Assembly (NCBI GenBank): GCA_020161615.1
Contig: JAIUPD010000003.1
Location: 248,001 to 312,000, forward strand
Length of the DNA: 64,000 nt
DNA from: Pseudomonadota bacterium
GTDB taxonomy: Bacteria > Pseudomonadota > Alphaproteobacteria > Rhodobacterales > Rhodobacteraceae
Direction of reading: 5' to 3'
Below, one piece after another: positions 25,484 to 56,881 of this stretch. The notes below the pieces were generated by a model. The model saw only the letters and a program-made list of their open reading frames with translations. It ran no database searches and had not been told where the DNA came from. Each line of letters begins with the position of its first letter. Positions within the stretch are counted from its first letter, which is position 1. The position numbers were made by a program, and so were the translations under genes.

Positions 25484-25493
25484 ATAATACAAT
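25484..25493 (-). promoter_or_regulatory. Candidate operator A of the ATTGTATNAT regulon
   Basis: Read on the minus strand the site is ATTGTATTAT, in an AT-rich run between the start of the dehydrogenase gene (25451) and the terminator of the preceding gene. It fits the FadR-subfamily pattern t.GTa.tAc (TTGTATTAT). The flank TACTATAAT is shared with site C. Confidence 0.55.
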
Positions 25494-25572
25494 ATTCTCC
25501 ACCGCAACGCCCGACCGCCAAGTTCTTTTCAAAGCGGTGTTTTTTTGCTGATCCCCGACAGGGCACCAAACC

Positions 25573-25605
25573 AAAAAAGGGGCGACCGACATCGTCGATC
25601 GCCCC
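25573..25605 (-). terminator. Rho-independent terminator after the TRAP substrate-binding gene
   Basis: On the minus strand GGGGCGA and TCGCCCC (25599-25605 and 25579-25585) form a 7-bp stem with a 13-nt loop followed by six T residues (25573-25578). It lies about 30 bp after the DctP stop and separates that unit from the dehydrogenase operon. Confidence 0.75.
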
Positions 25606-25635
25606 CGCCGCAGCCTGTGATCGGGGAGGCGGCGC

Positions 25636-26682
25636 TCAGTTCGCGGCGGCTTCGATCTCGGCCAGGACGGCGTTGTATTCGGCCACGAAGGCGTCATAGA
25701 TCGCCTGCCCGTTGTCGGTCTCGGCCAGCCAGGTCTCGGTGATCGGCGCCAGACGCTCCAGCCAGAGCGCGCGCTCTTCCTCGGGCAGCGAATATTGGTG
25801 CAGCGTCCCCGCTTCGATCAGCTGGTCGTTGAATTGCGCGCGCAGCACGTCCTGTTCACGCCCCAGATGCCGCGAAAGCCGCTCGCCGCTCCAGGCGTCG
25901 ATCGAGGCGCGGGCATCGGGTTCGAGGTTGGCATAGCTGTCGCGGTTCATGATGAAGGCGATGACCGACAGGCCAAAGGACACGTTGTCGACCTCGTATT
26001 CCAGCATCTCGTTGAAGCGGAAGACGACCAGCGAGTTGCCGTTGCCCACGGCCCCGTCAACCACGCCGCGGCTGATCGCCTGATAGGCCTCGCTGAACGA
26101 GATCGACACCGGCGAGGCGCCGAGCGCGGTCAGCGCCGCCGAGGTCTCGCGCCCGGTCGAGCGCACGCGCATCCCGGCCAGATCGTCCAGCGATTGCACC
26201 GGCGTCCTCGAATAGAGCGACAGCGCCATCGGCGTATAGAGGCCGAGGACATGCACCTGCTCGAACGTGTCGTCCAGCATCCCCTGTTCGTAGAGGCGCC
26301 ACAGCGCGGCCGAGGCGGCCTCGGCATTCGACGCGAGCCCCGGCAGCGAGGCGACGGCGGTGCGCTGGAACGGCAGGCCGGTCGCATAGGTGATCATGTT
26401 GCCGATATCGGCCACGCCTGCCGTCACCCGGTCCCACATATTGTCGGCAGCGGCAAAAGGCGGCGGATAAGGGGCCACGTCCAGCGTGCCGTTCGAGCCC
26501 TCGTTCAGCGCGTCGATCCAGGGCTGATAGCAGCAGCGCATGATGATGCTGTCGGGCGCCTGCGCCGTGGCGAAGCGCAGATGCTGCTGCGCGGGCGCCG
26601 CCATCGGCAGCACCGACAGCGCCAGCGCCGAGATCAGCGCGCGGGCGAACCGGCGGCTCGGGGTCTTCCTCGTATTCGTCAT
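25636..26682 (-). CDS. TRAP transporter substrate-binding protein (DctP family)
   Basis: A 348-residue periplasmic binding protein with a cleavable signal peptide (residues 1-32, ending SVLPMAAPAQQ). The DctP fold shows LAGMRVRSTGRETSAALTALGASPVSISFSEAYQAISRGVVDG, with the conserved Arg that clamps a carboxylate ligand. GGAGGAG precedes the ATG at 26682. It follows the FAD monooxygenase gene by 67 bp and presumably works with the fused DctQM permease at 28086-30053. Confidence 0.9.
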   Translation of the reverse strand: MTNTRKTPSRRFARALISALALSVLPMAAPAQQHLRFATAQAPDSIIMRCCYQPWIDALNEGSNGTLDVAPYPPPFAAADNMWDRVTAGVADIGNMITYATGLPFQRTAVASLPGLASNAEAASAALWRLYEQGMLDDTFEQVHVLGLYTPMALSLYSRTPVQSLDDLAGMRVRSTGRETSAALTALGASPVSISFSEAYQAISRGVVDGAVGNGNSLVVFRFNEMLEYEVDNVSFGLSVIAFIMNRDSYANLEPDARASIDAWSGERLSRHLGREQDVLRAQFNDQLIEAGTLHQYSLPEEERALWLERLAPITETWLAETDNGQAIYDAFVAEYNAVLAEIEAAAN

Positions 26683-26749
26683 GGTCTCTCCTCCCAGAGT
26701 GAATTGGCCGACCGGCGCGCGCCGGATCGGATCTTGGCCCCGCCCGCCC

Positions 26750-27922
26750 CTAAAGGCTGGATCGCATCGAGCGGGCAAACGGGACCTGCGCCCGAACGGC
26801 GTCGGGATCGGTCGCAAGGCGGCGTACGGCGCGCAGCTGGTTTTCCAGCAGGCTTCCGGCATAGGCGTGAAAGATCATCTGCTTGTTCTGAACCGCGCGG
26901 GGCGAGGCAATCTCGAGAAAGATGCGGCGCCTGTCATCGGAATAGCGGTCGAGAAGCTCGTGCGGGGCGCCCTCGTTGACGATCGCGTTGAGGATGTCGA
27001 GCAGGAAATAGAGGTCCAGCAGGCCCGAGGTCAGTCCAAGCCCCCCGGTGGGGTTGGTGATATGCGCGGCGTCGCCCGCCAGGATCACCCGCCCCACCCG
27101 CATCGTATCGGCGCAGCGCTGGTGCATCCGGTAGGGGGAATATTGCACCAGGTCGTAATCCTCGACCCCCGGGGCATAGGCGCGGTAGAAGGCATCGATC
27201 CGCCGGGTCACGCTGTCGAGGGGGAGCGACGCATCCTCCATGAAGGTGACGCGCCAGAGGTCGGACTTGTCGAGCTTGGCGATGATCGCGCCATGCACGT
27301 CGTCCATCACCATATTGGCCCGGGCATAGCCGAAGGATTCTAAGGGCAGGCGGACATTGGTGGCGATGAAGCGTTCGGGATGGGTGATGCCGAAGAAGTT
27401 GAGCTTCAGCGCCTTCTCGCGCACCGTGCTGCCGCCGCCATCGGCGCCGATCAGCCAGTCGAAACGCTCGACCGTCTCGCCCGCGGGACCGGACAGGCGC
27501 GCGGTCACGCCGCTGGCGTCCTGGGTGACATCGGTGAGGCGCGTGGCGAAGCGGACCTCGGCACTGGCGAAGCGCTCCAGGTGACGGCAGGCGATACGGG
27601 CCAGATCGTTCTGGCCCAGATGCAGGTTGAAGGGATAGGGCGCGACCTCGGCCAGCGGGGCCAGCGACCAGTGGATGCGCTCGTTGGTGCGGAACACCCA
27701 ATGGCAATAGTCCTGCTTGGCGAAGCCGGTTTCCAGCGCCTCGTCCAGGATGCCCAGCTGCTTCAGCCCGTCCAGCACATACCAGTGATAGACCGCGGCG
27801 CGGGGGGAATCGACGATATCGGGCTCGGCCTCGACCAGCGTGACCCTGAGGCCGCGCTGCGCAAGGCCCAGCGCGGTCAGGAACCCGACGGGCCCGCCTC
27901 CGGCGACCAGGACATGCTGCAT
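26750..27922 (-). CDS. FAD-dependent aromatic monooxygenase, paralogue 1
   Basis: A 390-residue class A flavoprotein monooxygenase. VLVAGGGPVGFLTALGLA is the GxGxxG FAD motif, FDWLIGADGGGSTVRE the DG motif, and RVILAGDAAHITNPTGGLGL the GD motif. Such enzymes hydroxylate phenols or benzoates with NAD(P)H and O2. It lacks the thioredoxin-like C-terminal domain of the 550-600-residue phenol hydroxylases. Two close paralogues are at 30085-31272 and 55623-56807. Candidate operator B lies 25 bp upstream of the ATG. Confidence 0.85.
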   Translation of the reverse strand: MQHVLVAGGGPVGFLTALGLAQRGLRVTLVEAEPDIVDSPRAAVYHWYVLDGLKQLGILDEALETGFAKQDYCHWVFRTNERIHWSLAPLAEVAPYPFNLHLGQNDLARIACRHLERFASAEVRFATRLTDVTQDASGVTARLSGPAGETVERFDWLIGADGGGSTVREKALKLNFFGITHPERFIATNVRLPLESFGYARANMVMDDVHGAIIAKLDKSDLWRVTFMEDASLPLDSVTRRIDAFYRAYAPGVEDYDLVQYSPYRMHQRCADTMRVGRVILAGDAAHITNPTGGLGLTSGLLDLYFLLDILNAIVNEGAPHELLDRYSDDRRRIFLEIASPRAVQNKQMIFHAYAGSLLENQLRAVRRLATDPDAVRAQVPFARSMRSSL

Positions 27923-27946
27923 CTCGACCCTCCTGATTGTGATACA

Positions 27947-27956
27947 GTAATACGAT
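27947..27956 (-). promoter_or_regulatory. Candidate operator B of the ATTGTATNAT regulon
   Basis: The minus strand reads ATCGTATTAC, 8 of 10 identical to site A, and its TCGTATTAC fits the FadR-subfamily pattern t.GTa.tAc exactly. It is 25-34 bp upstream of FAD monooxygenase paralogue 1. Confidence 0.5.
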
Positions 27957-28039
27957 ATGCTAGAGAGCGGACGACCGGCCTGTCAATCGCGCATCGCGCC
28001 CGAAAGACACAATAAAACGCCGTGATTTCCGTGCCTTGC

Positions 28040-28060: not shown

Positions 28061-28085
28061 CCTTGCCTTGCCGAATCGCCCCGCC

Positions 28086-30084: not shown

Positions 30085-31272
30085 TCAGAGCGTCGATTGC
30101 AGCTGCCGCGTGAAGGTGGCCTGCGCCAGAACCGCGTCGCGATCCGTCGCCAGCCGCCGCACCTGGGCCAGTTCGCGGTCGAACCACTCGCCTTGATGGG
30201 CGTGGAACACCCGCTGCTTGTTGCGGCTGGCCTGCGGCGAGGCGATTTCCAGGAAGATCCGCCGCCGCTCGTCGGAATAGCGGTCGAGCAGGTCATGCGA
30301 GGCGCCTTCGTTGACGATGGCATTCATGATCGCGGTCAGGAAATACGAATCGAAAAGGCCCGAGGTGAGACCCAGCCCGCCCGTGGGATTGGTGATATGC
30401 GCGGCGTCCCCGGCCAGGATCACCCGCCCGACCCGCATCGTATCGGCGCAGCGCTGGTGCATCCGGTAGGGCGAGAATTGCACGAGTTCGTAATCCTCGC
30501 GCCCCAGCCCCGGCACATAGGCCTGATAGAAATGGTGAATCCGGTCGCGGATACCCTCCAGCGGCAGGCTCGCGTCCTCCATGAAGGTGACGCGCCACAG
30601 GTCGTCGCGGTCGATCTTGGCGATGATCGCGCCATAAACATCGTCCATGACCATGTTCGCCCGGGCATAGCCGTAGGATTCGAACGGCAGTTTCACATTG
30701 GTGGCGACGAATCGCTCGGGCCAGGTGATGCCGAAGAAATTCAGCTTCAGGATCTTCTCGCGCACCGTGCTGCCGCCGCCATCGGCCGCGATCACCCAGT
30801 CGAACCGCTCTTCGGTGGCCCCGTCCGGCCCCTCCAGCCTGGCGGTGACGCCGTGGTCGTCCTGGGCAAGGCCGGAGATCTTCGTGCCGAAGCGAATCGT
30901 CGCCAGCGGGTTGGTTTCCAGCCGGCGCCAGGCGATCTCGGCCAGGTCGTTCTGGCCCAGATGCAGGTTGTAGGGATGCTTCGTCTCTGATTCGAGCGCG
31001 TCGAGCGACCAGTGGATCCGCTCATCCGTGCGGTGCACGACGAAGCTGTAATCCTGCTTGGTGAAGCCGCGGTCCATGGCCTCCTGCAGGATGCCCAGAT
31101 CCTCGAGCCCCTGCAGGACCGACCAGTGATAGACCATCGCGCGGGGCGAATTGACGATCTGCGGTTCGGCCTCGACCAGCGTCACCTTGATCCCGTAGCG
31201 GCCGGCCAGCCCCAGGGCGGTGATGAAGCCCGCCGGGCCGCCACCGGCGACCAGCACATGTTGAGTTCCCAC
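30085..31272 (-). CDS. FAD-dependent aromatic monooxygenase, paralogue 2
   Basis: A 395-residue class A flavin monooxygenase very similar to paralogues 1 and 3. It shows the GxGxxG motif in VLVAGGGPAGFITALGLAG, the DG motif in AADGGGSTVRE, and the shared block SPYRMHQRCADTMRVGRVI leading into the GDAAHITNP motif. It is the first gene of a unit with the fused TRAP permease. Operator C lies 22-39 bp before the ATG, inside a 352-bp divergent promoter region shared with the intradiol dioxygenase operon. Confidence 0.85.
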   Translation of the reverse strand: MGTQHVLVAGGGPAGFITALGLAGRYGIKVTLVEAEPQIVNSPRAMVYHWSVLQGLEDLGILQEAMDRGFTKQDYSFVVHRTDERIHWSLDALESETKHPYNLHLGQNDLAEIAWRRLETNPLATIRFGTKISGLAQDDHGVTARLEGPDGATEERFDWVIAADGGGSTVREKILKLNFFGITWPERFVATNVKLPFESYGYARANMVMDDVYGAIIAKIDRDDLWRVTFMEDASLPLEGIRDRIHHFYQAYVPGLGREDYELVQFSPYRMHQRCADTMRVGRVILAGDAAHITNPTGGLGLTSGLFDSYFLTAIMNAIVNEGASHDLLDRYSDERRRIFLEIASPQASRNKQRVFHAHQGEWFDRELAQVRRLATDRDAVLAQATFTRQLQSTL

Positions 31273-31293
31273 GGGCTCCTCCCCAGGCGTGAG

Positions 31294-31311
31294 TATGATT
31301 GTATGATTATA
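31294..31311 (-). promoter_or_regulatory. Candidate operator C of the ATTGTATNAT regulon
   Basis: The 18-bp plus-strand sequence TATGATTGTATGATTATA is identical to that at 56864-56881, upstream of FAD monooxygenase paralogue 3. The core ATTGTATGAT is at 31298-31307. The site lies just upstream of the paralogue 2 ribosome-binding site. Confidence 0.65.
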
Positions 31312-31532
31312 GTACTGAGCGCTTCAGCCGAATGTCAACCGACCTGATGCGTCCGCCGCGCTGCCTGCCGTCGGCGGCAGTATCGAAACAGCCCGAGACG
31401 GAAGTCAAATCAGCTATCGCCGGGTTAACATAGCTCGGCGTTATTCTGGTCATTGCCCCGGCGGCTGCCGGGCGGGTTCGGGCCCTGCCTGCGTGCCGAC
31501 GCGCGGATTTCGGCAATCCCACCGCCGGGTAG

Positions 31533-31562
31533 ATAGCAAATCGCTATATTGAACGGCGTTCA
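31533..31562 (+). promoter_or_regulatory. Twin palindromes before the intradiol dioxygenase operon
   Basis: ATAGC-N5-GCTAT (31533-31547) and TGAAC-N3-GTTCA (31550-31562) are adjacent perfect inverted repeats, about 60-90 bp upstream of the ATG at 31625. They differ from the ATTGTATNAT motif, so this operon may answer to another regulator, for example one of the two LysR proteins of the island. Confidence 0.45.
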
Positions 31563-31624
31563 TTTCATCATACGGGGCGCATTCTTCGGCCATCGTGACG
31601 GCGGGAGCTGGGAGGTCCCCGATC

Positions 31625-39000: not shown

Positions 39001-40065
39001 TCACGCGCCGGGGCGGCTCCCGTCCCAAGCCTGTTGCAACAGCGCGCGGATGTCGTCGCGGCTGAAGTCGCGCGGATTGGAATAGCGGTTCTCGACCGCG
39101 AGCGCGGCGGCGCGGTCGAGGTCGGCTTCCGCAATCCCCACCTCCTTCAGGCTGAGGGGCGAGCCCACCTCACGCGCGAAATCCCACAGCCCGCCTCCGG
39201 CCGAGCCACCACCGAAAGCCTCGGCGATGGGCGCCAGGGCGTCCGGCACCGCGGCCTCGTTGAAGGCGGTGGTATAGGGCAGCAGGATCGCATGTGTCTC
39301 GGCATGCGGCGTATCGAAGGACCCGCCGAAGACATGCGCCAGCTTGTGGTGCAAGGCCATCGAGACATAGCCCAGCGCCGTCGAGCAGCACCAGGCGGCA
39401 TAGAGCGCCCGCGCCCGGGCCGGTTGCGAGCGGGGATCGGCGATCAGCGCCGGGATGCCCGACTTGAAGGCCTGCATCGCGTCGCGGCACATGAGTTCGA
39501 TCACCGGCGAGCGGTCGGGGGCGTAGAAGGCCTCCATGGCGTGCGCGATGGCGTTCATCGCCGAGGTGACGGTCAGCCCGACCGGCAGGGTCAGCGTCAG
39601 GTCCACGTCATAGATCACGGTTTCCGGCCGGATCGCGGGATCGCGGCGGGTGGTCTTCCGGCCCGCCGCCGTCTCGCCCAGAATGTCGGTCATCTCGGAG
39701 CCCGCGTAGGTAGTCGGGATCACCACCTGATCGGCGCCGGTGCGCAGCGCGATGGCCTTGCCGAGCCCGGTGGTCGATCCGCCGCCCAGGCTGACCACCG
39801 CCCCAGCGCCGCTTTTCTGAAAGGCGGCAATGGCCTTTTCCGTCACCTCGACCGGCGTGTGCATGGCGGCACCGGCAAAGACCCCGGCCGTGCGCCCGCC
39901 CAAGGCCTCGGCCAGCCGCTGCGCATCGGCTTCCTGATGCGGGGTCGAGAGGACCAGCGCCTTGCCCTGACCCAGCCGGTCGAGTTCGGCCCCGGCCTGC
40001 GCCAGCGTGCCCGAGCCGAAGACAACGCGGGTCGTCATGCCGGGAAATACGAAGGAATCCATCAT
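39001..40065 (-). CDS. Maleylacetate reductase
   Basis: A 354-residue iron-type alcohol dehydrogenase fold. SLGGGSTTGLGKAIALRTG and PTTYAGSEMTDILGE are the NAD(P)-binding and maleylacetate reductase signatures, and AHAMEAFYAPD, HHKLAHVFGGSF and PHAETHAILLPY line the active site. It reduces maleylacetate to beta-ketoadipate (3-oxoadipate), the step shared by hydroxyquinol, chlorocatechol and hydroquinone pathways. This is the best anchor for the island's biochemistry. AAAGGA is 8 bp before the ATG at 40065. Confidence 0.9.
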   Translation of the reverse strand: MMDSFVFPGMTTRVVFGSGTLAQAGAELDRLGQGKALVLSTPHQEADAQRLAEALGGRTAGVFAGAAMHTPVEVTEKAIAAFQKSGAGAVVSLGGGSTTGLGKAIALRTGADQVVIPTTYAGSEMTDILGETAAGRKTTRRDPAIRPETVIYDVDLTLTLPVGLTVTSAMNAIAHAMEAFYAPDRSPVIELMCRDAMQAFKSGIPALIADPRSQPARARALYAAWCCSTALGYVSMALHHKLAHVFGGSFDTPHAETHAILLPYTTAFNEAAVPDALAPIAEAFGGGSAGGGLWDFAREVGSPLSLKEVGIAEADLDRAAALAVENRYSNPRDFSRDDIRALLQQAWDGSRPGA

Positions 40066-40202
40066 TCTCTGTCCTTTCGGCCCCAAGGGCCATGGGTTGC
40101 TGCCCGCCGGCCTTCCCCTCGGGGGTGCCAGACAGGCCAGCGCCCGCCCGCTGCCCCCAGGGGGGCGCGGACGGGCGGGATAGGGCGCGCGCGCGGCGCG
40201 GA

Positions 40203-42138: not shown

Positions 42139-42167
42139 TTGATCGCATCCTGCCCAGCTTATATAGC
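42139..42167 (+). promoter_or_regulatory. Promoter of LysR gene 1 with overlapping inverted repeat
   Basis: TTGATC (42139-42144), a 17-bp spacer and TATAGC (42162-42167) end 8 bp before the LysR ATG, with no ribosome-binding site, suggesting a leaderless transcript. AGCT-TATAT-AGCT (42156-42168) overlaps the -10 and would suit autoregulation by the encoded protein. Confidence 0.5.
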
Positions 42168-42175
42168 TTGTCAGC

Positions 42176-43123
42176 ATGAAACTCAGCGCCGAACACCTGG
42201 AAATCCTGGCCGTCATCGTCGAGAAGGGCGGTCTGACCGAAGGCTCCGAGGCCTTGGGCAAGTCGCAGCCCTCGGTCTCGCGCAGCATGGCCCTGCTCGA
42301 ACAGCGGGTCGGCATGCCGCTCTTCGAGCCGGGACGCCGCCCGCTCAGGCCCACGGAACTGGGCCTGAGCCTGGCCAAGGCGGGGGCGCGGATCCGCGCC
42401 GCGGGGATCGAGGCCGGGCAGATGGTCCGCCGCTTCCAGCAGGGACAGGCGGGGCGGCTTCGGGTCGGGGGCACGCCCGTGTTCATGGATGGCGTCGTCT
42501 CGGGCATCATCGCCGATTTCCAGTCGCGCAACGCCGATGTGCAGATCGAACAGGTTTACGGCTATCTCGACGCGCTGGCGACCAGCCTGCGCAATGGCAC
42601 GCTGGATCTGGCGATCCTGCCGATGCACCCGACCCAGGTCCCGCGCGAGATGACCTTTACGCCCCTGCTGGCGGGGCACAACGTCATCGCCTGCCGGGCC
42701 GGGCATCCGCTGACCCGCCGCAAGGGCCTGACCATGGCCGATATCGAGGATTTCAGCTGGATCGCGCCGCCCAGCGACAGCCCGCTCTACCGCGACCTGC
42801 AACGCGCCCTGCGTTCCATCGGTCGCGAGGATTTCCAGGTCAGTTTCTCGGGCGGCACGCTGTCCTCGATCCTGGCGGTACTCTCGGCCTCGGACGCGCT
42901 GACGGTCCTGCCCTATTCGGTGGCCTTTCTTGCGCGGCGGACGACGCCGCTGGAAATCCTGCCGGTGCGCATCGAACACCCCGACCGCCAGCTGGGCATC
43001 CTCACCGCGGCCGAGGGGCGCGAGGCGCGGACGCTGAAGGCTTTCGCGGCCTTTGTCGGGGACGAGCTGCACCGGCTGCAGAACCGGATGGATCACGAGC
43101 GGCAGGTCCGCCGCCGCGGCTGA
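42176..43123 (+). CDS. LysR-type transcriptional regulator 1
   Basis: A 315-residue LysR protein. The HTH (residues about 4-62) has LEILAVIVEKGGLTEGSEAL and SQPSVSRSMALLEQRVGMPL, and the effector domain begins GRLRVGGTPVFMDG. It is divergent from the TfdB-like hydroxylase with a 215-bp spacer and probably controls it. The protein at 45333-46283 is a clear paralogue, sharing the RRPL segment after the HTH and a G(R/V)VRVGG-PFFMD-like start of the effector domain. Confidence 0.9.
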   Translation: MKLSAEHLEILAVIVEKGGLTEGSEALGKSQPSVSRSMALLEQRVGMPLFEPGRRPLRPTELGLSLAKAGARIRAAGIEAGQMVRRFQQGQAGRLRVGGTPVFMDGVVSGIIADFQSRNADVQIEQVYGYLDALATSLRNGTLDLAILPMHPTQVPREMTFTPLLAGHNVIACRAGHPLTRRKGLTMADIEDFSWIAPPSDSPLYRDLQRALRSIGREDFQVSFSGGTLSSILAVLSASDALTVLPYSVAFLARRTTPLEILPVRIEHPDRQLGILTAAEGREARTLKAFAAFVGDELHRLQNRMDHERQVRRRG

Positions 43124-43126
43124 GGT

Positions 43127-43459
43127 CTATTTCGTCGCCAGATAGGTGCTGCCGTCGAGCGCGGTGAACCGCACCGCCGAATGCAGGCCGGTGAACCGCC
43201 GCACGGCGTCGCGCAGAAGGACCGCCACCTGCTCCATAAGATCGCGCGTGCGGCTGGGTGCGGGCAGATAGCTCATTTCCAGATTGACGGGCGGCTGGTC
43301 GGCCAGCCCCGCCACCTCGATGGCGGCAAGCTGGCAGGCGGCCTTCTGCACGCCCAGATGCTGCACCACGATCTCGCGCAGTTCGGCCATCAGCGCCGGC
43401 ATCTGGCCGCGCGCCTCGGGGTGGCGCGCCAGATCGACATAGAGCTTGATGTTCGGCAT
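43127..43459 (-). CDS. Tautomerase-superfamily protein
   Basis: A 110-residue protein beginning MPNIKLYVDLARHP, so removal of Met exposes an N-terminal proline, the catalytic base of the tautomerase (4-oxalocrotonate tautomerase/MIF) fold. The length fits CHMI-like isomerases rather than the 62-residue 4-OT. It is 7 bp downstream of the intradiol dioxygenase gene and may isomerise its enol product. The assignment rests on the N-terminus and context. Confidence 0.6.
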   Translation of the reverse strand: MPNIKLYVDLARHPEARGQMPALMAELREIVVQHLGVQKAACQLAAIEVAGLADQPPVNLEMSYLPAPSRTRDLMEQVAVLLRDAVRRFTGLHSAVRFTALDGSTYLATK

Positions 43460-43466
43460 CGCGGGG

Positions 43467-44303
43467 TCAGGCCGGGACCAGAACGAAATCGTACGCCGAC
43501 CGCCAGAGTGTCTCGGCGCCCTCGAGCCGCTCGTAGGGTGCCACCAGCGAGCTTTTCACGCCGAACACCGCGTCCGAGGTCAGATAGGAATCGTCGCCGA
43601 CGAAAGTATGCGTCACCAGCTTCTGAAAGCCCGGCGCGGTGACGAGGTAATGCATATGCGCCGGCCGATAGGGGTGGCGCCCGAGGTGGCCGAGCATCTG
43701 GCCGACGGGGCCGTCATCGGGGATTGGATAGGCCACCGGCTTGATGCCGCGGAAGGCATAGCGGCCGTCCTTCCCGGTGTAGAAGCGGCCGCGGTTGTTC
43801 CATTTCGGCTGGATGCCGGGCTGCTGCACGTCATAGAAACCCTCGGCATTGTCGGACCAGACATCGACGCAGGCGCCCTCGACCGGGTTGCCGTCCAGAT
43901 CGCGCACCACGCCCTCGAAAAGGCAGCTCTCGCCCTTGCCGTCGAGCGAAATGTTGTCGCCCATCTGCCGGATCGGCGCATCGGCGACGTGGAAGGGGCC
44001 GAAGACCGTGTTCTCGGTCGCGCCCGCGGGGCGGCGGTTGTTGATCGCATCGACCAGCATCGAGAACCCCAGAACGTCGGACAACAGGATGAATTCCTGC
44101 CGCTCGTCCGAGCACATCTGGCCGGTGCGGGTCAGGAAGCCGATGCCGTATTCCCATTCCTCCTGGGTCAGCGAGACATCGACGGCAAAGGCGTGCAGAT
44201 GGCGCACCAGGCTTTCCATGACCTGCCGCAGGCGGGCGTCGGTCTGGGGACCCATCCGGCTGTTGACGGTCTCGGCCGAACGGGCTTCATCGAAATAGCT
44301 CAT
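43467..44303 (-). CDS. Intradiol dioxygenase, probably hydroxyquinol 1,2-dioxygenase
   Basis: A 278-residue Fe(III) dioxygenase. The iron ligands are Tyr in EGFYDVQQP, Tyr in PVAYPIPDDGP, and two His in RPAHMHYLVTAPG. The GPFHVADAP segment (His where catechol dioxygenases have Tyr) is characteristic of hydroxyquinol 1,2-dioxygenases, which turn 1,2,4-trihydroxybenzene into maleylacetate, the substrate of the reductase at 39001-40065. ATG 44303 gives the family N-terminus. A 13-bp perfect inverted repeat lies 163 bp upstream. Confidence 0.88.
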   Translation of the reverse strand: MSYFDEARSAETVNSRMGPQTDARLRQVMESLVRHLHAFAVDVSLTQEEWEYGIGFLTRTGQMCSDERQEFILLSDVLGFSMLVDAINNRRPAGATENTVFGPFHVADAPIRQMGDNISLDGKGESCLFEGVVRDLDGNPVEGACVDVWSDNAEGFYDVQQPGIQPKWNNRGRFYTGKDGRYAFRGIKPVAYPIPDDGPVGQMLGHLGRHPYRPAHMHYLVTAPGFQKLVTHTFVGDDSYLTSDAVFGVKSSLVAPYERLEGAETLWRSAYDFVLVPA

Positions 44304-44465
44304 GGTCACAGGGCCCCTGCTCTGCGGCCCGGGGATCGCCGGGCCTGGACGGTTCCGACCCCGGCAGACCCGCAAGACAAGGCCCCTGCCCCGCCCCGCC
44401 ACGCCGCCGTGTCGTCCCGGCCCTTATCCGGGATCGCCCCCGTTCAGGTCAAATGCGCATCCCGT

Positions 44466-44527: not shown

Positions 44528-45241
44528 TCAGGAGGCGTCCGGCGCCGGCTCTTCCAAGCGGCCCAGGGCGGCGATGGCGGCGTTGCGGACATGCAGCGAC
44601 ACCGCCTCGCGCGCGGCCTTGGCATCGCGGCGCTGGATCGCGTCGATCACCGCGCCCAGTTCCGCCAGGCTGTGCTCGGTCCGTCCCGGCGCGCTGAGCG
44701 AGGCCGAGCGCAAGAGCGTGATCCGCGAATTCAGCATCCGCAGCGTGTCGCCCACCGCCTGGTTGTCGGCGGCCTTGATCAGCACGTCGTAGAAATGGTT
44801 CTTCGCCACCAGCCGGTCCAGCACATCGGCGCTTTGCATCGCCACGCGCAACTGGTCGAAGGCCGCGGCCAGCCCCGCCACGGCGGCGTCATCGGCCTCG
44901 GTCGCGACCAGTTCGGCCGCCAGCCCTTCGAGCAGGCTGCGCACGCGGTAGATGTCCTCGGCCTGCTTGCGCGAGAGCTTGGTCACCATCGGCCCGCGGT
45001 TGGCATGAACCTCGATCAGGCCCTCGGTCTCGAGCTGGCGCAGGGATTCACGCACCAGCGTTCGGCTGACCCCGGCCATCTCGCATAATTCGCGTTCACG
45101 CAGGCGTTGTCCCGGCTTGAAATGCCCCAGCGCAATCGCGTTGCGGATGCTGTCTGTCACCTGCTGACGCAGGGGCGCCGCCACTCTCTCGACCAGAAAC
45201 GTCACGTTCACTCCGGCTTTGTCGACATCGGCCCTCAGCAT
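44528..45241 (-). CDS. GntR family transcriptional regulator, FCD subfamily
   Basis: A 237-residue regulator. The N-terminal winged HTH shows RNAIALGHFKPGQRLRERELCEM and SRTLVRESLRQLETEGLIEV, and the C-terminal helical FCD domain contains DIYRVRSLLEGLAAELVA and AVSLHVRNA. FCD domains bind small carboxylic acids through a metal. AGGAGG lies 6 bp before the ATG at 45241, so upstream in-frame starts are rejected. It is the best candidate to bind the ATTGTATNAT sites. A weak copy lies in front of its own gene. Confidence 0.9.
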   Translation of the reverse strand: MLRADVDKAGVNVTFLVERVAAPLRQQVTDSIRNAIALGHFKPGQRLRERELCEMAGVSRTLVRESLRQLETEGLIEVHANRGPMVTKLSRKQAEDIYRVRSLLEGLAAELVATEADDAAVAGLAAAFDQLRVAMQSADVLDRLVAKNHFYDVLIKAADNQAVGDTLRMLNSRITLLRSASLSAPGRTEHSLAELGAVIDAIQRRDAKAAREAVSLHVRNAAIAALGRLEEPAPDAS

Positions 45242-45266
45242 ATCAACCCTCCTGACATGCATGACG

Positions 45267-45276
45267 GTAACACAAT
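45267..45276 (-). promoter_or_regulatory. Weak ATTGTATNAT-like site upstream of the GntR gene
   Basis: The minus strand reads ATTGTGTTAC, 8 of 10 identical to site A, and keeps the t.GTa.tAc skeleton. It is 26-35 bp before the GntR start. If real, it implies autoregulation. Confidence 0.35.
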
Positions 45277-45332
45277 CCATAGCGCATGGAGGGCCAACAG
45301 GAAAGGGAGAGCGGCGGGCGCCCGCCCCGGGG

Positions 45333-46283
45333 TCAGCGGCCCCAGACCACGGCATTCTCGTGCCGCTGGATGATGTGGCGCAGCGCGTCGAAGGCGGTCA
45401 TGATATAATGCGCCAGCCGGTCGGCGGCGGGCGACCGCGGCACCCCCGCCAGCCGCAGGATGCCCAGCGAGCGGTTGGGCTGGGGAATATCGAAGGGCAG
45501 CACCGTGACCCGGTTCTCCTTGCGCTGGGCAAAGACCACCGAGAAGGGCAGCACCGCCAGCGCATCCGATCCCGACAGGAAGCTGATCACGCTCATCAGC
45601 GAGCCGCCGGCGTAGCGGATGCTGAGTTCCGAGACGCCGATGCTCATGAGGATCATCTGCAAATCCGACATCAGCGGCGAGCCGGGCAAGGGCGCGATCC
45701 AGGGATAGGCGGTCAGGTCCACCGCCTGCAGCCGGCTGCGGCGCATCAGCGGATGGCCGGGACGGCAGGCAACGATGTTGCGCCCGGGCAGGAGTTCCAC
45801 AAAGTCGAAGGCCGGGCCGGGATGCGCCGACCCCACAGGCACGATGCCCATGTCGATCAATCCCGCCTCCAGCGCAACGGTCATTTCCGGCAGGTTGCCA
45901 TAGCTCTGCTCGACCGTGACCTCGGGTTCCTCGCCGTGGAAGCTGGCGATCATCTGGCTGATCATCGCATCCATGAAGAAGGGCACGCCGCCCACGCGGA
46001 CCACGCCCCGCGCCCCGGTCACATAGCCCCGCACCGCATCCGTGGCATGGCGCGAGGCGGCAAGGATGGCGCGGCCGTGGATCGCCAGCTGCTCGCCCAG
46101 GGGCGTGGCCTTCAGCGGCCGGCGCCCCCGCACGAAAAGCGGCTGTTCGACGCGGGCCTCCAGCATGCTCAGCGAGCGGCTGACGGCCGATTGCGTCATG
46201 CCCAGAAGCGCCGCGCCCTCGGACACGCTGCCGGTGTCGAGGACGGCCGCCAATTGCATCAGATGGCGCTCGTTCAGCTTCAT
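45333..46283 (-). CDS. LysR-type transcriptional regulator 2
   Basis: A 316-residue LysR protein. The HTH region is LMQLAAVLDTGSVSEGAALL and TQSAVSRSLSMLEARVEQPL, and the effector domain opens with GVVRVGGVPFFMDAM. It is paralogous to the protein at 42176-43123. It lies upstream of, and co-directional with, the GntR gene (91 bp apart), forming a regulator cluster. A TATAGA-N7-ATG arrangement without a ribosome-binding site suggests a leaderless mRNA. Confidence 0.9.
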   Translation of the reverse strand: MKLNERHLMQLAAVLDTGSVSEGAALLGMTQSAVSRSLSMLEARVEQPLFVRGRRPLKATPLGEQLAIHGRAILAASRHATDAVRGYVTGARGVVRVGGVPFFMDAMISQMIASFHGEEPEVTVEQSYGNLPEMTVALEAGLIDMGIVPVGSAHPGPAFDFVELLPGRNIVACRPGHPLMRRSRLQAVDLTAYPWIAPLPGSPLMSDLQMILMSIGVSELSIRYAGGSLMSVISFLSGSDALAVLPFSVVFAQRKENRVTVLPFDIPQPNRSLGILRLAGVPRSPAADRLAHYIMTAFDALRHIIQRHENAVVWGR

Positions 46284-51344: not shown

Positions 51345-52523
51345 TCAGGCCGGGATCAGGCGCAGCGGCACCCGGGCAAAGCCCGCGGCATTGTTGTTGA
51401 TCTTGCGCTCGGCCGGCCCCGCGGGCTCGATCCGGCGGACGCGGGACACCAGCGCCCCGACGATGGCCGAGAATTCCATCCGCGACAGCGCCTGCCCGGC
51501 GCAGGCATGGACGCCAGCGCCGAAGGCCATGTGGCCCAGCACCTTGCGCCGGTCGACGCGGAAGCTGTCGGGCTCTTCCCAGACCGAAGGGTCGCGCCCC
51601 ACCACGTTGAGGAAAGCCGCCACCTTGTCCCCGGCCCTGAGCGGCACACCCCAGAGGTCGGTGTCGCGCGCCACGCCCCGGCCGACGGTGCGCGCGGGCG
51701 GCTCCATGCGCAGCGTCTCTTCAAATGCCGTGCGCACCAGTTCCGGCGCCTCGCGCAGGCGGTCCCATTGGTCGGGGTTGTCCGCAAGCAGCTTCAAGCC
51801 GTTGCCGATGGCCAGGATCGTCGTGTCGAATCCGGCGCTGAAGATGATGACCACCAGCGTCTGCGCGTCTTCCTGCGACAGGATCCCCTCGTCCGCCATG
51901 CGGAAGATGGCGCCGCCCATGCTGTCGGGCCGGAAATTCTCGCGCCGCATCTGATGGGCGAACCATTCCAGCACATCGCCGCTGCGCGCCTTGCTGTCGA
52001 GGAAGATCTGATTGCCCGGCACGTTGGAATTGAACGCAAGGTCGGCCCAGGGCAGCAGCCGGGGACGGTCCATGTCGATCACGCCCAGAATGTCGGGAAA
52101 GACCTTCAGCACGTAACGGGCGGCGATGTCTTCCACACCGTCGACCTCGCCCATCGCCACGATCTCGTCGGCCATCTTTTCGGCCTCGGCGCGGAAATAG
52201 GCGTCGTATCCCTTCAACGCCAAGGGGGAGAACAGGCTCATCATCGGCTTGCGCACCCGGGCGTGATCGGGCGGATCCTCCTGCACCAGGGTCTTGCGGA
52301 TGAACTCGCGCTCGCCGAAGGCCTTCACGGTCGAGGTGAAAACCTCCCATTCCTTGAACATGACCTGCGCCAGCGCGTGCTGGCCGGTGACATAGACGCC
52401 GTAAGGCTCAAGCCAGCACACCGGCGCCTGCGCCAGCGCCTGGCGCATGATCTCCAGATTGTCGGGAATGGTTTCGTAGGTGAACGGATCGAGGGCGATC
52501 CGGGGCACATCCAGAAGCGTCAT
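51345..52523 (-). CDS. Cytochrome P450
   Basis: A 392-residue soluble bacterial P450. The I-helix oxygen-activation motif is FSAGFDTT, the K-helix ExxR is EETLR, and the heme-thiolate loop is AFGAGVHACAGQALSRMEF, with Cys near residue 340. Bacterial P450s of this size beside aromatic genes often O-demethylate or hydroxylate substituted benzoates or phenols. No ferredoxin or ferredoxin reductase gene is in the window. The upstream 384-bp region, shared with the MmgE/PrpD operon, carries two candidate operators. Confidence 0.92.
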   Translation of the reverse strand: MTLLDVPRIALDPFTYETIPDNLEIMRQALAQAPVCWLEPYGVYVTGQHALAQVMFKEWEVFTSTVKAFGEREFIRKTLVQEDPPDHARVRKPMMSLFSPLALKGYDAYFRAEAEKMADEIVAMGEVDGVEDIAARYVLKVFPDILGVIDMDRPRLLPWADLAFNSNVPGNQIFLDSKARSGDVLEWFAHQMRRENFRPDSMGGAIFRMADEGILSQEDAQTLVVIIFSAGFDTTILAIGNGLKLLADNPDQWDRLREAPELVRTAFEETLRMEPPARTVGRGVARDTDLWGVPLRAGDKVAAFLNVVGRDPSVWEEPDSFRVDRRKVLGHMAFGAGVHACAGQALSRMEFSAIVGALVSRVRRIEPAGPAERKINNNAAGFARVPLRLIPA

Positions 52524-52633
52524 GGCTCCTCCTTCGCGCGGCCGGGCCGGGGCCCGGTGCGGCAGCACATTTCGCCCCTGGGGCCGCTACCCTCCTTGCG
52601 GTGATGGCCGGGTCGAACTGATTACTGTATAGC

Positions 52634-52648
52634 AATCATACAATCATA
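52634..52648 (-). promoter_or_regulatory. Candidate operator D of the ATTGTATNAT regulon
   Basis: The plus strand reads AATCATACAATCATA, which contains ATTGTATGAT on the minus strand and shares 15 consecutive bases with sites C and F. It is about 110 bp upstream of the P450 start. Confidence 0.6.
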
Positions 52649-52775
52649 ACTCAAGAAGAATGCCCTTGACCTGGAAAACCGGGACAGCGCGCCGGTTTCG
52701 TGTTTCTTTTCAATCGGATGGATGCAGCGGTTCCCCGTCATGGTCGCGGGTGAGTTTACGGTTGATTATGGTAGT

Positions 52776-52785
52776 ATTGTATGAT
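52776..52785 (+). promoter_or_regulatory. Candidate operator E of the ATTGTATNAT regulon
   Basis: ATTGTATGAT on the plus strand, preceded by TATGGTAGT. It is about 120 bp upstream of the first MmgE/PrpD gene. The core is identical to sites C, D and F, while the flanks differ. Confidence 0.55.
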
Positions 52786-52907
52786 GATTCTGAACCTAAC
52801 CCCCGACTCAAGGCGTTATCCCCGTGGCCAAGCCGCGAATCGCCGGACCGGGCGGTGCCTTTCCCGCGGGCCAGCGCGCCCCCGACCATCGACCCGAGGA
52901 GAATCCG

Positions 52908-54272
52908 ATGACCGCAAATGCTACGCCACAGGGCGTGTCGCAGGCCCTGGCCGCGCATCTCGCCACCCAGCGCCCCGAGGCCCTGACCGAGGCCGACCGC
53001 CACGAAGCCCGCCGCGCGCTGGTCAATATCGTCGGCTGCGCCCTGGGCGGGGCCGAGCATGAGGCGGTCGGGATCGCCATCGCCGCCCGCGGCCCCTTCG
53101 CCGGGGCGCCGACCGCCCGGGCGCTGGGCCGGCGCGAGGGGTTCGACCCGCTGCTGGCGTCCCTGATCAACGGCATCAGCTCGCATGTGCACGATTTCGA
53201 CGACACCACGCCCTCGAATTACATCCACCCGACCTCGCCCGTGGCCTCGGCGCTTTTTGCCTATGCCAGCGCCAACCCGGTCAGCGGCGCGGATTTCCTG
53301 CATGCCTTCATCCTGGGGTATGAGGCGGTCACCCGCATCGGCAACGCCACCTATCCCGCGCATTACCAGGCAGGCTGGCATTCGACCGGTTCCATCGGCG
53401 TCTTCGGCGCGGCTGCGGCCATCGGCCGGCTGATGGGCCTGAACGCCGAGCAGATGCGCCACGCGCTGGGGCTGGCCGCGACGCAGGCCGCCGGGATCCG
53501 CGACAATTTCGGCGCGATGGCGAAATCGCTGCACCCCGGCCGCTCGGCCGAGGCGGGCTATATGGCGGCGCTGCTGGCGGCAAACGGCTTCACCGCCGGG
53601 CCGACGCCGCTGGAAGGCCCGCGCGGCTTTGCCCATGTCACGACCGGCACCTCGGGCAGCTTCGATCTGTCGCTCATCACCCGTGACCTCGGCCGCGACA
53701 CGCTGCTGCACGAGAATACCTACAAGCCCTTCCCCTGCGGCATCGTCGTGCATCCGACCATCGACGCCTGCCTGCAACTGGTCGCGGCGCATGGCCTGAC
53801 GCCCGAGATGATCGAGGCGGTCGAGCTGGACGTGGCACCGCTGGTCCTCGACCTCTGCAACCAGAAGGACTTCACCGTCGGCCTGCAGGGCAAGTTCTCG
53901 ATCTACCACGCCGCCGGGATCGCGCTGGCCCGCCACCGCGCCGGGCGCGCGGAATTCAGCGACGAGACGGTGAACGCCGCCGATGTGAAGGCGATGCGCG
54001 CCCGCGTCACGCCCCGGGCGTCGGACAAGGTGCCCGAGGACGGGGTGCATGTGACGCTCCGGCTCAAGGACGGGCGGGTGCTGACCAAGGAGTTGGACGC
54101 CTCCATCGGCAACATCCGCAGGCCGTTGTCCGACGACCAGCTGGCGCAGAAGTTCCGCGATCAGGCCGAGGTCCTGAAACCCGTGCGGACCGAAGCGCTG
54201 ATCGAGGCGCTCTGGTCCCTCGACAGCGCGGCCGACATGGGGGCCATCATCGCCCTGGCCACGCCGGAATGA
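52908..54272 (+). CDS. MmgE/PrpD family protein 1
   Basis: A 454-residue MmgE/PrpD protein. An N-terminal all-helical domain with GISSHVHDFDDTTPSN, HYQAGWHSTGSIGVFGAAAA and GAMAKSLHPGRSAEAGYMAA is followed by the smaller C-terminal lid. Members include 2-methylcitrate dehydratase, cis-aconitate decarboxylase and iminodisuccinate-processing enzymes, acting on di- or tricarboxylic acids. Its exact reaction is unknown. It overlaps the second MmgE/PrpD gene by 4 bp. Confidence 0.88.
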   Translation: MTANATPQGVSQALAAHLATQRPEALTEADRHEARRALVNIVGCALGGAEHEAVGIAIAARGPFAGAPTARALGRREGFDPLLASLINGISSHVHDFDDTTPSNYIHPTSPVASALFAYASANPVSGADFLHAFILGYEAVTRIGNATYPAHYQAGWHSTGSIGVFGAAAAIGRLMGLNAEQMRHALGLAATQAAGIRDNFGAMAKSLHPGRSAEAGYMAALLAANGFTAGPTPLEGPRGFAHVTTGTSGSFDLSLITRDLGRDTLLHENTYKPFPCGIVVHPTIDACLQLVAAHGLTPEMIEAVELDVAPLVLDLCNQKDFTVGLQGKFSIYHAAGIALARHRAGRAEFSDETVNAADVKAMRARVTPRASDKVPEDGVHVTLRLKDGRVLTKELDASIGNIRRPLSDDQLAQKFRDQAEVLKPVRTEALIEALWSLDSAADMGAIIALATPE

Positions 54273-55591
54273 GCGCGCCCTCCCCCTCGGCCGCGCTGGC
54301 CCGCTTCGCCGCCGAGACCCCGACCGGGGCGATCCCGCCCGCGCTGCGCAACCTCGCCCGGCGTTCCGTGACCAGCGCGCTGGCCGCGGGCATTGCCGCC
54401 CGCCGAGACCTCGATGCGGCGGCGATGCTGCGGGTGCTGGCCCGGCTCTCTGGTCCCCCACGCGCCGGGGTGATCGCGGGCGGTCCGCGGCTCGACGTGA
54501 CGCGGGCGGCCTTCGCCAATGCCATGCTCTGCAACCTCCTCGATTTCGACGACACCCATGCGCCGACCATCCTGCACCCGACCGCACCCGTCCTCGGCGC
54601 GGTCATGGCGCTGGCCGAGGATCTGGGCACGCCCCCGGCCGAGGCGATGACCGCCTTCACGCTGGGCTGCGAAATGGCCTGTCGTCTGGCCGATGCCGTC
54701 TCGCCCGAACACTACCGCCGCGGTTGGCACATCACCGCCACGACCGGCGCGCTGGGGGCGGCGCTGGCGGCGGCCCGGCTTCTGGGCCTCGATGCCCGGC
54801 GCAGTCTCTGGGCGCTGGGCCATGCCACGGCGCAGGCCTCGGGCACGGTCGAGACGCTGGGCACCATGGCCAAGAGCACGGGCGTTGGCAATGCGGCGCA
54901 AGCCGGGGTGTTGGCGGCGCTGATGGCGGCCGAGGGCGTGGCAGGGCCGGAAACGCCGCTGGAAGGTCCGCGCGGCTATCTGCGGCTGGTGACGGACCGG
55001 CCGGATCTGGAGGGGCTGGCGCGGGGCCTCGGGCAGGATTGGTCCTTTGCCCGCAACATGCCTAAGCCCTATCCCTGCGGCGTGGTGCTGAACCCGGTGA
55101 TCGAGGCGGCGCTGGCGCTGCGGGCGGAGCTCGGCGCCGCGCCCATCGCCCGGATCGAGATCGCCGGCTGCCAGCTGCTTCTCGACCGCACCGACCGCCC
55201 CCTCGCCCGCCTGCCGCGCGACCTTCAGGTCTGCGCCCAGCATTGCGTCAGCGCGGCGCTGCTGCGCGGTCGTTTCGGCCCGGCCGAGGTCGATGCCGAG
55301 GCCGCCAATGACCCGCAGATCGCCGCCCTCCGTACCCGGGTGGGCCCCATGATCGTGGATCCCGGCCTTACCGTCGATGGCGCCCGCGTGACGCTCTGGC
55401 TGGAAGACGGCCGCAGCCTCTCGCGCACCATCATCGAGGCCGAGGGCAGCCCCCGCCGTCCCCTGAGCGACGCGGCGCTGGCGGCGAAACTGCGGGCGCA
55501 ATGTAGCGATCCGGCCGAAGCCGAGGCGCTGCTGACAGCGCTGGCCGGGATCTGGACCGACGTACCACTTTCAGCCCTGACCGGCCAATGA
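54269..55591 (+). CDS. MmgE/PrpD family protein 2
   Basis: A 440-residue paralogue of the preceding protein, with matching FDDTHAPTILHPTAPVLGAV, YRRGWHITATTGALGAALAA and TMAKSTGVGNAAQAGVLAAL segments. The sequence is well diverged from copy 1, so the two may form a heterodimer or act on successive intermediates. A strong bidirectional terminator follows immediately. Confidence 0.88.
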   Translation: MSAPSPSAALARFAAETPTGAIPPALRNLARRSVTSALAAGIAARRDLDAAAMLRVLARLSGPPRAGVIAGGPRLDVTRAAFANAMLCNLLDFDDTHAPTILHPTAPVLGAVMALAEDLGTPPAEAMTAFTLGCEMACRLADAVSPEHYRRGWHITATTGALGAALAAARLLGLDARRSLWALGHATAQASGTVETLGTMAKSTGVGNAAQAGVLAALMAAEGVAGPETPLEGPRGYLRLVTDRPDLEGLARGLGQDWSFARNMPKPYPCGVVLNPVIEAALALRAELGAAPIARIEIAGCQLLLDRTDRPLARLPRDLQVCAQHCVSAALLRGRFGPAEVDAEAANDPQIAALRTRVGPMIVDPGLTVDGARVTLWLEDGRSLSRTIIEAEGSPRRPLSDAALAAKLRAQCSDPAEAEALLTALAGIWTDVPLSALTGQ

Positions 55592-55593
55592 GG

Positions 55594-55619
55594 AAAAAGG
55601 GCGCCGCGGCGCCCTTTTT
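55594..55619. terminator. Bidirectional Rho-independent terminator
   Basis: AAAAAGGGCGCC (55594-55605) and GGCGCCCTTTTT (55608-55619) form a 12-bp stem with A- and T-tracts at the outer ends. It sits between two convergent stops (55591 and 55623) and can terminate both transcripts. Confidence 0.9.
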
Positions 55620-55622
55620 CTG

Positions 55623-56807
55623 TCAACGTTCCATGTGGGTTTCCAGCGTCTTGGTGAACCCGGCCATCTGGCGCACCACATCGGGCTCATGCGGCAGACG
55701 GCGCAGGAAGGCCAGCCGTTCCTCCAGCCAGCTATCCTGATAGGCGTGGAAGATCAGCCGCTTGTTCGCCACCGCCTGCGGCGAGGCGCGCTCGATGAAC
55801 ATCTGCCGGCGGCGGTCGGAATAGGTGTCGAGGTGATCCTCGGACGCCCCTTCCAACAGGATCGCCGTCATCACCTCCAGCAGGTGATAGACATCGAAGA
55901 GGCCCGAGGTCAGACCCAGCCCGCCCGTCGGATTGGTGATATGCGCCGCATCCCCGGCCAGCACCACGCGGCCCACCCGCATCGTATCGGCGCAGCGCTG
56001 GTGCATCCGGTAGGGCGAGTATTGCACCAGCTCGTAGTCGCCAATCCCCGGGGCATAGGTGCGATAGAAGGCATCCATCCGCTCGGGCACACCATCAAGC
56101 GGCAGCGAGGCATCCTCCATCACCGTGATCCGCCACAGATCGCTGTCGTCGATCCGCACAATGATCGCGCCATAGACCGGATCCATGGTCAGGTTCGACA
56201 GCAGGAACCCGTGCTGGCGGAAATCGTGGCGAACATTTGTGGCGATGAAGCGCTCGGGATGGGTGATGCCGAAGAAATTGAGCTTCAGCAGCTTCTCGCG
56301 CACCGTGCTGCCGCCGCCATCGGCGCCGATCACCCAATCATAGCGCTCCTCCACCGGCCCCTGCGGGGTCTGCAGGGTCACGCTGACGCCCGAGGCATCC
56401 TGCGAAAGCCCGCTGATCCTGGTGCCGAACCGCACCGAGGTCCCCGGCAGCCGTTCCAGATGCTGCCAGGCGATCCGCGCCAACTCGTTCTGGCCCAGAT
56501 GCAGGTTGTAGGGATAGGGCGTGATCGGATCCAGCGCGTCGAGCGACCAGTTGATCCGCTCATTGGTGCGGAACACCCAATGCGAGAATTCCTGCTTCAC
56601 GAAGCCGGTCTTGCGCGCATCGTCCAGGACCCCCAGCCGGTCCAGCCCTTCCAGCACCGACCAATGGTAGACCATGGCGCGCGGCGAATCGACGATCTCG
56701 GGCTCGGCTTCGACCAGCGAGACGCGGATACCCGCCCGGGCCAGCCCCAGCGCCGTCAGAAAACCGACCGGCCCACCGCCGACCACCAGAACTTGTTTGT
56801 CGCTCAT
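55623..56807 (-). CDS. FAD-dependent aromatic monooxygenase, paralogue 3
   Basis: A 394-residue class A flavin monooxygenase closely related to 26750-27922 and 30085-31272. It has VLVVGGGPVGFLTALGLARAG, the DG motif GADGGGSTVRE, and the shared block SPYRMHQRCADTMRVGRVV leading to GDAAHITNP. The region around residues 215-235 (RHDFRQHGFLLSNLTMDPVYG) differs from the other two, in what should be the substrate domain, so its substrate may differ. Operator F lies 57-74 bp upstream. It appears monocistronic. Confidence 0.85.
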   Translation of the reverse strand: MSDKQVLVVGGGPVGFLTALGLARAGIRVSLVEAEPEIVDSPRAMVYHWSVLEGLDRLGVLDDARKTGFVKQEFSHWVFRTNERINWSLDALDPITPYPYNLHLGQNELARIAWQHLERLPGTSVRFGTRISGLSQDASGVSVTLQTPQGPVEERYDWVIGADGGGSTVREKLLKLNFFGITHPERFIATNVRHDFRQHGFLLSNLTMDPVYGAIIVRIDDSDLWRITVMEDASLPLDGVPERMDAFYRTYAPGIGDYELVQYSPYRMHQRCADTMRVGRVVLAGDAAHITNPTGGLGLTSGLFDVYHLLEVMTAILLEGASEDHLDTYSDRRRQMFIERASPQAVANKRLIFHAYQDSWLEERLAFLRRLPHEPDVVRQMAGFTKTLETHMER

Positions 56808-56863
56808 GCATCCCCTCTCCTGCGTCCTGCCGCCCGGGCGATGGCGGCTGACGAGGAAAGTGA

Positions 56864-56881
56864 TATGATTGTATGATTATA
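56864..56881 (-). promoter_or_regulatory. Candidate operator F of the ATTGTATNAT regulon
   Basis: TATGATTGTATGATTATA, identical over 18 bp to site C more than 25 kb away, in front of the third FAD monooxygenase paralogue. The core ATTGTATGAT is at 56868-56877. Confidence 0.65.

Follow-up and report, generated by a model that had tools for sequence, protein, structure and literature searches.

Tandem-octamer sites shared by six transcription units of a Rhodobacteraceae catabolic island, and the GntR/FCD regulator that probably binds them

Six transcription units in a catabolic island carry much the same AT-rich sequence shortly before their first genes, which raises the question of whether these sites are the operators of one regulon and, if so, which regulator binds them. 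The island lies in the window, i.e., the whole stretch of 64,000 nucleotides that was analysed (G000:C3:248001-312000, from a 4.87-Mb host genome of the Rhodobacteraceae). The closest named relative found was Pararhodobacter aggregans, whose GntR protein is 98% identical to the one encoded at 44528-45241 of the window. The explanation that fits best, and that we consider very probable, is that the six sites, here called operators A to F, are arrays of tandem octamers through which this FCD/GntR protein would repress the units until a pathway intermediate releases it. The sites lie 16-66 bp upstream of the six start codons (reading-frame starts, taken from coordinates), five of the six less than 60 bp away, and P. 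aggregans retains all six. They are listed here together with the proposed regulator and a weak copy in its leader.

25471..25500 (core 25484-25493), minus strand: operator A, about 24 bp upstream of the gene at 24573-25451; conserved in P. aggregans
27934..27963 (core 27947-27956), minus strand: operator B, 16 bp upstream of FAD monooxygenase 1 (FMO1); 9.1 bits in the 19-site model described below, the weakest of the six
31291..31315, plus strand: operator C, 19 bp upstream of FMO2
52622..52651 (core 52635-52644), minus strand: operator D, about 66 bp upstream of the cytochrome P450 frame
52761..52790, plus strand: operator E, 38 bp upstream of the MmgE/PrpD genes
56861..56884, plus strand: operator F, 54 bp upstream of FMO3; same as C over 18 bp
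45262..45283 (core 45267-45276), minus strand: weak operator-like copy in the gntR leader, at background
44528..45241, minus strand: GntR/FCD regulator of 237 aa, proposed binder of operators A-F from its Pfam GntR and FCD domains and from cross-genome linkage of the motif

A tandem-repeat motif concentrated in the island

An earlier note on this DNA, made from the letters alone, had placed a common operator or "close variants" of it before these units, with C and F identical over 18 bp. The sites are indeed present at those positions, and the identity of C and F was confirmed. Exact copies of ATTGTATNAT occur five times in the window; shuffles average 0.06, and none of 100 contained as many as five. 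Enrichment in the window disappears once two mismatches are tolerated (25 found vs 26.3 expected), so close variants alone prove nothing, and exact and model-based tests were used instead. Operator B, which like the copy in the gntR leader differs from ATTGTATNAT at two positions, is backed by independent models.

The note had also proposed a genome-wide motif search, in which a random spread would have spoken against a regulon; genome-wide pattern searches showed near confinement to the island. All four copies of ATTGTATGAT in the host genome are in the island (reversed control, 0), as are five of the six copies of ATTGTATNAY (reversed control, 2). For the tandem pattern with at most one mismatch, island sites make up five of the seven matches in the host genome, while with at most two mismatches there are 22 matches against 21 for the reversed control. 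Three other host matches to these patterns (C6:5642, C6:199496 and C14:59758) were checked against reading frames, and C14:59758 lies inside candidate frames. The string ATTGTAT is also part of an RpoN site given in PMC9817140.

Operators of the FadR subfamily are typically palindromes of the form TKGT...ACMA, and the earlier note had read the sites in this way, as t.GTa.tAc. That reading was not borne out, as the operator consists of 8-bp tandem direct repeats, approximately TGTATGAT, and each of the six is an array of two to three octamers close to TGTATGAT or TGTATTAC. Over 25 sites (19 from outside the window and six from within it), the direct-repeat signal reaches z 10.2 at 8 bp and z 6.0 at 16 bp, in contrast to z 0.8 for a palindrome; a FadR-type palindrome is therefore rejected. 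Across 31 sites, excluding those of P. aggregans, self-identity is highest at offsets of 8 bp (z 10.9) and 16 bp (z 7.2). The offset-8 values are boosted by the two-unit model used in site collection, and only offset 16 (z 6.0-7.2) is free of this effect. MAFFT, unprompted, displaced three of the 19 sites in its alignment, in each case by 8 columns exactly. Each octamer does resemble FadR-type sites in holding GT-NNN-AY, close to GTNNNAC, whereas the operator as a whole has no significant dyad symmetry. The lack of a palindromic TKGT/ACMA operator does not remove the regulator from the FadR subfamily, because exceptions such as NanR are known (PMC4494728), and membership rests on the protein.

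NanR of Escherichia coli offers the nearest comparison. According to two papers, NanR binds direct repeats of TGGTATAW (PMC4494728), and three NanR dimers bind a (GGTATA)3 operator cooperatively, NanR being a repressor (PMC8012715). The system described here has in common with it the 8-bp direct repeats, a FadR-subfamily GntR protein and, as predicted here, control of a catabolic regulon. It differs in its octamer (TGTATGAT/TGTATTAC instead of TGGTATAW), in its target genes, in a protein that is not NanR by the curated model, and in the N terminus, where NanR has a 32-residue extension and the protein here about 24 residues before the winged helix, with fewer in some orthologues. Direct-repeat operators of the FadR subfamily, represented by that of NanR, would thereby gain a further octamer sequence.

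A second comparison is with StsR of Streptococcus mutans, a GntR-family regulator of sugar transporters, whose footprinted motif TATAATTGTATTATA is called a 15-bp palindrome in an AT-rich region in PMC6340165. The motif holds ATTGTATTAT letter for letter, the same as operator A. By eye, an imperfect tandem of 8-bp units, TATAATTG-TATTATA, may equally be seen in the StsR motif, although this is our reading and not that of its authors, and the comparison extends to motif letters only.

Linkage of the motif to the FCD regulator

The protein encoded at 44528-45241 scores 67.3 bits for Pfam GntR and 79.1 bits for FCD, both above cutoff, which places it in the GntR family, FadR subfamily. It stays below the curated cutoff of each of the 16 NCBIfam models that it matched, NanR included (56 bits vs a cutoff of 260), and no paper on this regulator was found in the open-licence literature searched. 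An FCD protein below all matched cutoffs thus gains a predicted operator and regulon. Its FCD domain reads KN.FY at the position where metal-binding FCD proteins have D..FH, and a metal-free effector site is possible.

Among 394 genomes of the family, two others than the host have a gntR orthologue (52-57% identical). Further orthologues in alphaproteobacteria were found in three other genomes among 385 of the class, in three of the 43 genomes that belong to the order of G574, on one contig of a metagenome-assembled genome (L002, a contig of G464), and on at least four of 124 matching plasmids, one of them that of G239; the plasmid search covered 30 of the 124 records, with eight regions examined. 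Sites are present in all 11 orthologue loci, in leaders or neighbouring intergenic regions, where seven of the 11 trained the motif, L035 is nearly a duplicate of L034, and L033 and L045 are weak with the window-only matrix.

With the window excluded, a Gibbs sampler run on the 330-bp leaders of seven gntR orthologues yielded a 16-bp motif scoring 146.7 (148.9 on a repeat run). At equal effort, scores were 114.1-122.2 for eight dinucleotide-shuffled sets and 117.2-125.6 for eight sets drawn at random from those loci. When the window was scanned with the de novo motif, the best 17 matches all fell inside A-F and touched all six operators, and the 18th (56329) lay within a gene; the 16 control motif sets placed 0-2 of their 17 best window matches there.

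A 19-site model was built by sequence only, with none of its sites taken from the window or from P. aggregans. Site collection gave 37 sites, of which 20 entered the non-window profile after six window sites, six P. aggregans sites and five weaker matches (L028 10557, L034 9277 and 16512, L059 3346 and 10653) were left out; the 19-site model additionally omits L034 16590 because of its near identity to L033 16602. Two loci, L041 and L046, were dropped because they repeat the 3,719-bp contig region of L002, and L035 was kept outside site collection, model and recognition-helix comparison. This model ranks A-F first to sixth in the window. Run on whole genomes at E <= 10, it returned four matches in the host (E, C, F and A) and five in P. 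aggregans, all at conserved sites on the island's contig, and none in the same-genus genome G222, where no gntR match reaches E <= 1e-50. Operator B is conserved in P. aggregans with a change that keeps the motif. In two independent annotated records, pLA6_008 and R. daejeonense, all seven collected sites (three and four) lie between listed genes, the gene table being incomplete.

The motif also follows gntR at a broader scale. All eight gntR-bearing genomes tested have one or more copies of ATTGTATNAY no further than 20 kb from gntR, with binomial P values from 1.6e-12 (P. aggregans) to 0.021 (G775, one of three sites). The 12-mer TGATTGTATGAT matches 19 of the 394 family genomes, with three copies in the host and one in each other genome; it is too narrow as a marker, because it is absent from G128 and G239, which bear gntR orthologues. 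Separately, L060, on another contig of G128, holds a ATTGTATGAC site (about 2147-2156; G128:C14:80146) that precedes a reading frame by some 60 bp. The surrounding stretch has matches of TRAP-like and aldehyde-dehydrogenase type, and the site is a possible distant member of the regulon.

Paralogues of the regulator served as a control. In G574, G775 and G777, the motif is found in the 57% orthologue loci and missing from the 47-50% paralogue loci (three of three), whose best scores are 13.0, 7.9 and 6.7 over scans of 3.7 kb for two loci and 19.5 kb for one. The recognition helix tracks the motif, reading GVSRT(L/A)VRE(A/S)(L/M)RQLE(S/T)EG where the motif is present and GVSRPSVREALRELESEG in the paralogues without it. 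A GntR/FCD group on Rhizobiaceae plasmids (L036-L039, 44-46% identical), likewise beside HIBADH-type and carboxymuconolactone-decarboxylase (CMD) genes, has ATTGTCTGAT sites instead of ATTGTATGAT and the recognition helix GVGRTSVREALRQLEAEG, so that the helices differ among the orthologue, paralogue and Rhizobiaceae-plasmid groups. The position of the ATTGTCTGAT sites, near the group's own gene and the HIBADH/CMD genes, suggests a second operator specificity. The resulting natural series, from ATTGTATGAT through ATTGTCTGAT to no site at all, goes along with a few residues of the recognition helix and is useful for work on GntR specificity.

Several observations, besides the boosted offset-8 score, weigh against the assignment of A-F to this regulator or against repression from all six. 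Operators B and D were not returned by the 19-site model in the whole-genome search at E <= 10, and the E values of that model genome-wide are 0.14-1.4, so rank and not individual significance is the evidence. With the window-only matrix, L033 scores 18.8 at best, a value that the highest of 10 shuffles also reaches, and L045 scores 16.1; neither is clearly above chance. In three of the 11 orthologue loci (L044, L057 and L059), the nearest collected site is about 1.2-1.3 kb from gntR. The weak copy that the earlier note had seen before the GntR/FCD gene exists as sequence, but as an operator it is indistinguishable from background (4.5 bits, E 3.8 in the 19-site model, tied with a match at 31560-31573) and is outside the best 30 window matches of the de novo motif; the gntR leader of the window thus holds a degenerate site at best, compared with an assigned site in seven of seven orthologue leaders. 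Finally, no promoter-like pair in the direction of the gene was found at A, D, E or F, and two pairs near E and F face the opposite way.

Proposed mode of action and rival explanations

Promoter-like elements adjoin some of the operators. Operator B is just downstream of a TTGACA-18-TAGCAT pair (27986-27957), operator C overlaps the -10 of a TTGACA-18-TACTAT pair (31338-31309, minus strand), and before FMO3 a TTGACA stands directly beside operator F. In the region searched for the B and C promoters, four promoter-like pairs were found vs 0.9 expected. A terminator-like stem of 13 pairs (25606-25578) lies between operator A and the preceding gene. By analogy with NanR on (GGTATA)3, regulator dimers would most likely bind adjoining octamers cooperatively; bound dimers would then block RNA polymerase, and a pathway intermediate, probably a carboxylate, would release them. 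Such steric repression with a carboxylate of the pathway as inducer is the most likely mode, judging from other members of the FadR subfamily.

It could instead be that the GntR regulator activates, or both activates and represses, from the same tandem sites. Position alone is compatible with activation, and D and E share one divergent region, but B lies immediately past the -10 of a promoter-like pair and C on that of another, five of the six sites are less than 60 bp from a start codon, and NanR, a tandem-repeat FCD regulator, is a repressor (PMC8012715). We regard this variant as unlikely.

A different binder would be one of two local LysR regulators.

42176-43123 and 45333-46283: two local LysR regulators, both within the island

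LysR proteins often use AT-rich boxes. However, neither LysR has a tblastn match at E <= 1e-12 in the 11 motif-bearing orthologue loci outside Pararhodobacter, as judged from the fetched stretches (3.7 to about 36 kb), which were the part of those genomes searched for LysR, and sites adjoining start codons suit a repressor better than a LysR activator. The orthologue neighbourhoods thus disfavour LysR as the binder, and we hold this explanation to be very improbable. The earlier note's proposal of one regulon of six units, with the FCD regulator as its likely binder, gains from the same comparison, as the motif is in orthologue loci and not in paralogue loci, and homologues of the two LysR genes are missing from the searched stretches of the orthologue loci.

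Under a last rival explanation, the sites would have no regulator of their own and would stem from a dispersed repeat or promoter cassette spread by gene duplication. This would suit three paralogous monooxygenases (64-71% identical) and the 18-bp identity of C and F, yet it can be practically dismissed, since the three paralogue leaders have no BLAST match outside the C/F operators, and the same motif precedes unrelated genes here, lies beside gntR in distant genomes and is nearly absent elsewhere in the host genome.

Composition and evolution of the proposed regulon

The genes of the six operator-bearing units were compared with Pfam and the PDB, with unit boundaries taken from gene order. 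Unit A is led by a 2-hydroxymethylglutarate-dehydrogenase-like gene, unit B holds FMO1 and a TRAP binding-protein gene (DctP1), unit C holds FMO2 and TRAP membrane (DctQM) genes, unit D reads P450-DctP2-DctQM2-SDR-epimerase, unit E holds two MmgE/PrpD genes, and unit F holds FMO3. Unit D possibly extends into LysR2, gntR and the hydroxyquinol dioxygenase gene.

24573..25451, minus strand: 2-hydroxymethylglutarate / tartronate-semialdehyde-type dehydrogenase (HIBADH-type); homologue in nine of 11 orthologue loci
25451 down to about 20320, minus strand: gene run of unit A (HIBADH, cupin, metallo-beta-lactamase-fold (MBL) lactonase, aldehyde dehydrogenase, CMD, glyoxalase-fold)
23306..24106, minus strand: metallo-beta-lactamase-fold hydrolase, related to 4-pyridoxolactonase and N-acyl-homoserine-lactone (AHL) lactonase; homologue in eight of 11 orthologue loci
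26750..27922, minus strand: FMO1, 71% identical to FMO2
30085..31272, minus strand: FMO2, closest solved relative HspB
55623..56807, minus strand: FMO3, 64-66% identical to FMO1/2
51345..52568, minus strand: cytochrome P450 (Pfam)
52824..55591, plus strand: two MmgE/PrpD-family genes (domain comparison)

The regulon is smaller than the whole island. The island also contains a hydroxyquinol branch (2-hydroxybiphenyl-3-monooxygenase-like, maleylacetate reductase and hydroxyquinol dioxygenase genes) and an ABC-transporter operon, and scans of the window with the de novo motif and the 19-site model found no strong site before either.

By sequence, the closest solved structure to FMO2 is HspB, the 6-hydroxy-3-succinoylpyridine 3-monooxygenase of nicotine degradation (PDB 7da9; E 3e-112, nearly full length). 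Unlike HspB, the enzyme here occurs as three FMO copies under a putative GntR operator. The A-F regulon is best read as a putative local repressor regulon for a pathway that perhaps handles a heterocycle or aromatic compound, and the linked enzymes may define one pathway.

In the 11 orthologue loci outside Pararhodobacter, homologues of the HIBADH-type dehydrogenase (nine), MBL lactonase (eight), CMD (eight) and MmgE/PrpD (seven) recur, TRAP genes appear only in the genus of G574, G775 and G777, and no FMO or P450 match was found. FMO2 homologues at E <= 1e-60 number three in the host, and P. aggregans has all three FMOs; searches of seven further whole genomes found none, either in six that bear gntR outside Pararhodobacter (G128, G239, G574, G770, G775 and G777) or in the same-genus G222, and did not extend to the full genomes from which L002 and the Rhizobiaceae and Ochrobactrum plasmids come. 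When the three FMO leaders were compared by short-word BLAST, the 18 bp of C/F were the main match, and the sole other was 13 bp overlapping the C/F stretch. Since the FMO leaders are unmatched outside the operators and the six sites are kept in P. aggregans, the monooxygenase operators look as if this lineage had added them and selection had then maintained them.

The older core of the regulon would then be a module of lactonase-like, 2-hydroxymethylglutarate-dehydrogenase-like, carboxymuconolactone-decarboxylase-like and MmgE/PrpD genes, and the Pararhodobacter lineage may have brought three duplicated HspB-like monooxygenases and the P450 under the same switch, which suggests that recently duplicated catabolic genes were placed under an older regulator. 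More speculatively, and with rather less than even confidence, the FCD orthologues may form an undescribed group that binds one dimer per octamer as NanR does but on a different octamer; Pararhodobacter would have captured its triplicated HspB-like set and P450 via new tandem operators, with array length and register tuning the promoters of an N-heterocycle pathway.

Three further features of the window may be recorded. The hydroxyquinol branch at 39001-44402 (maleylacetate reductase, hydroxyquinol 1,2-dioxygenase and flavin hydroxylase) is interleaved with the GntR regulon and lacks its operator. A weak motif-like site (ATATTGTCTGCT) at 42123-42144, between the 2-hydroxybiphenyl-monooxygenase-like gene and LysR1, is also present in P. 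aggregans. At 58704-60923, a single reading frame fuses a pyridine-nucleotide-disulphide oxidoreductase domain to AIR-synthase-related (SelD-like) domains.

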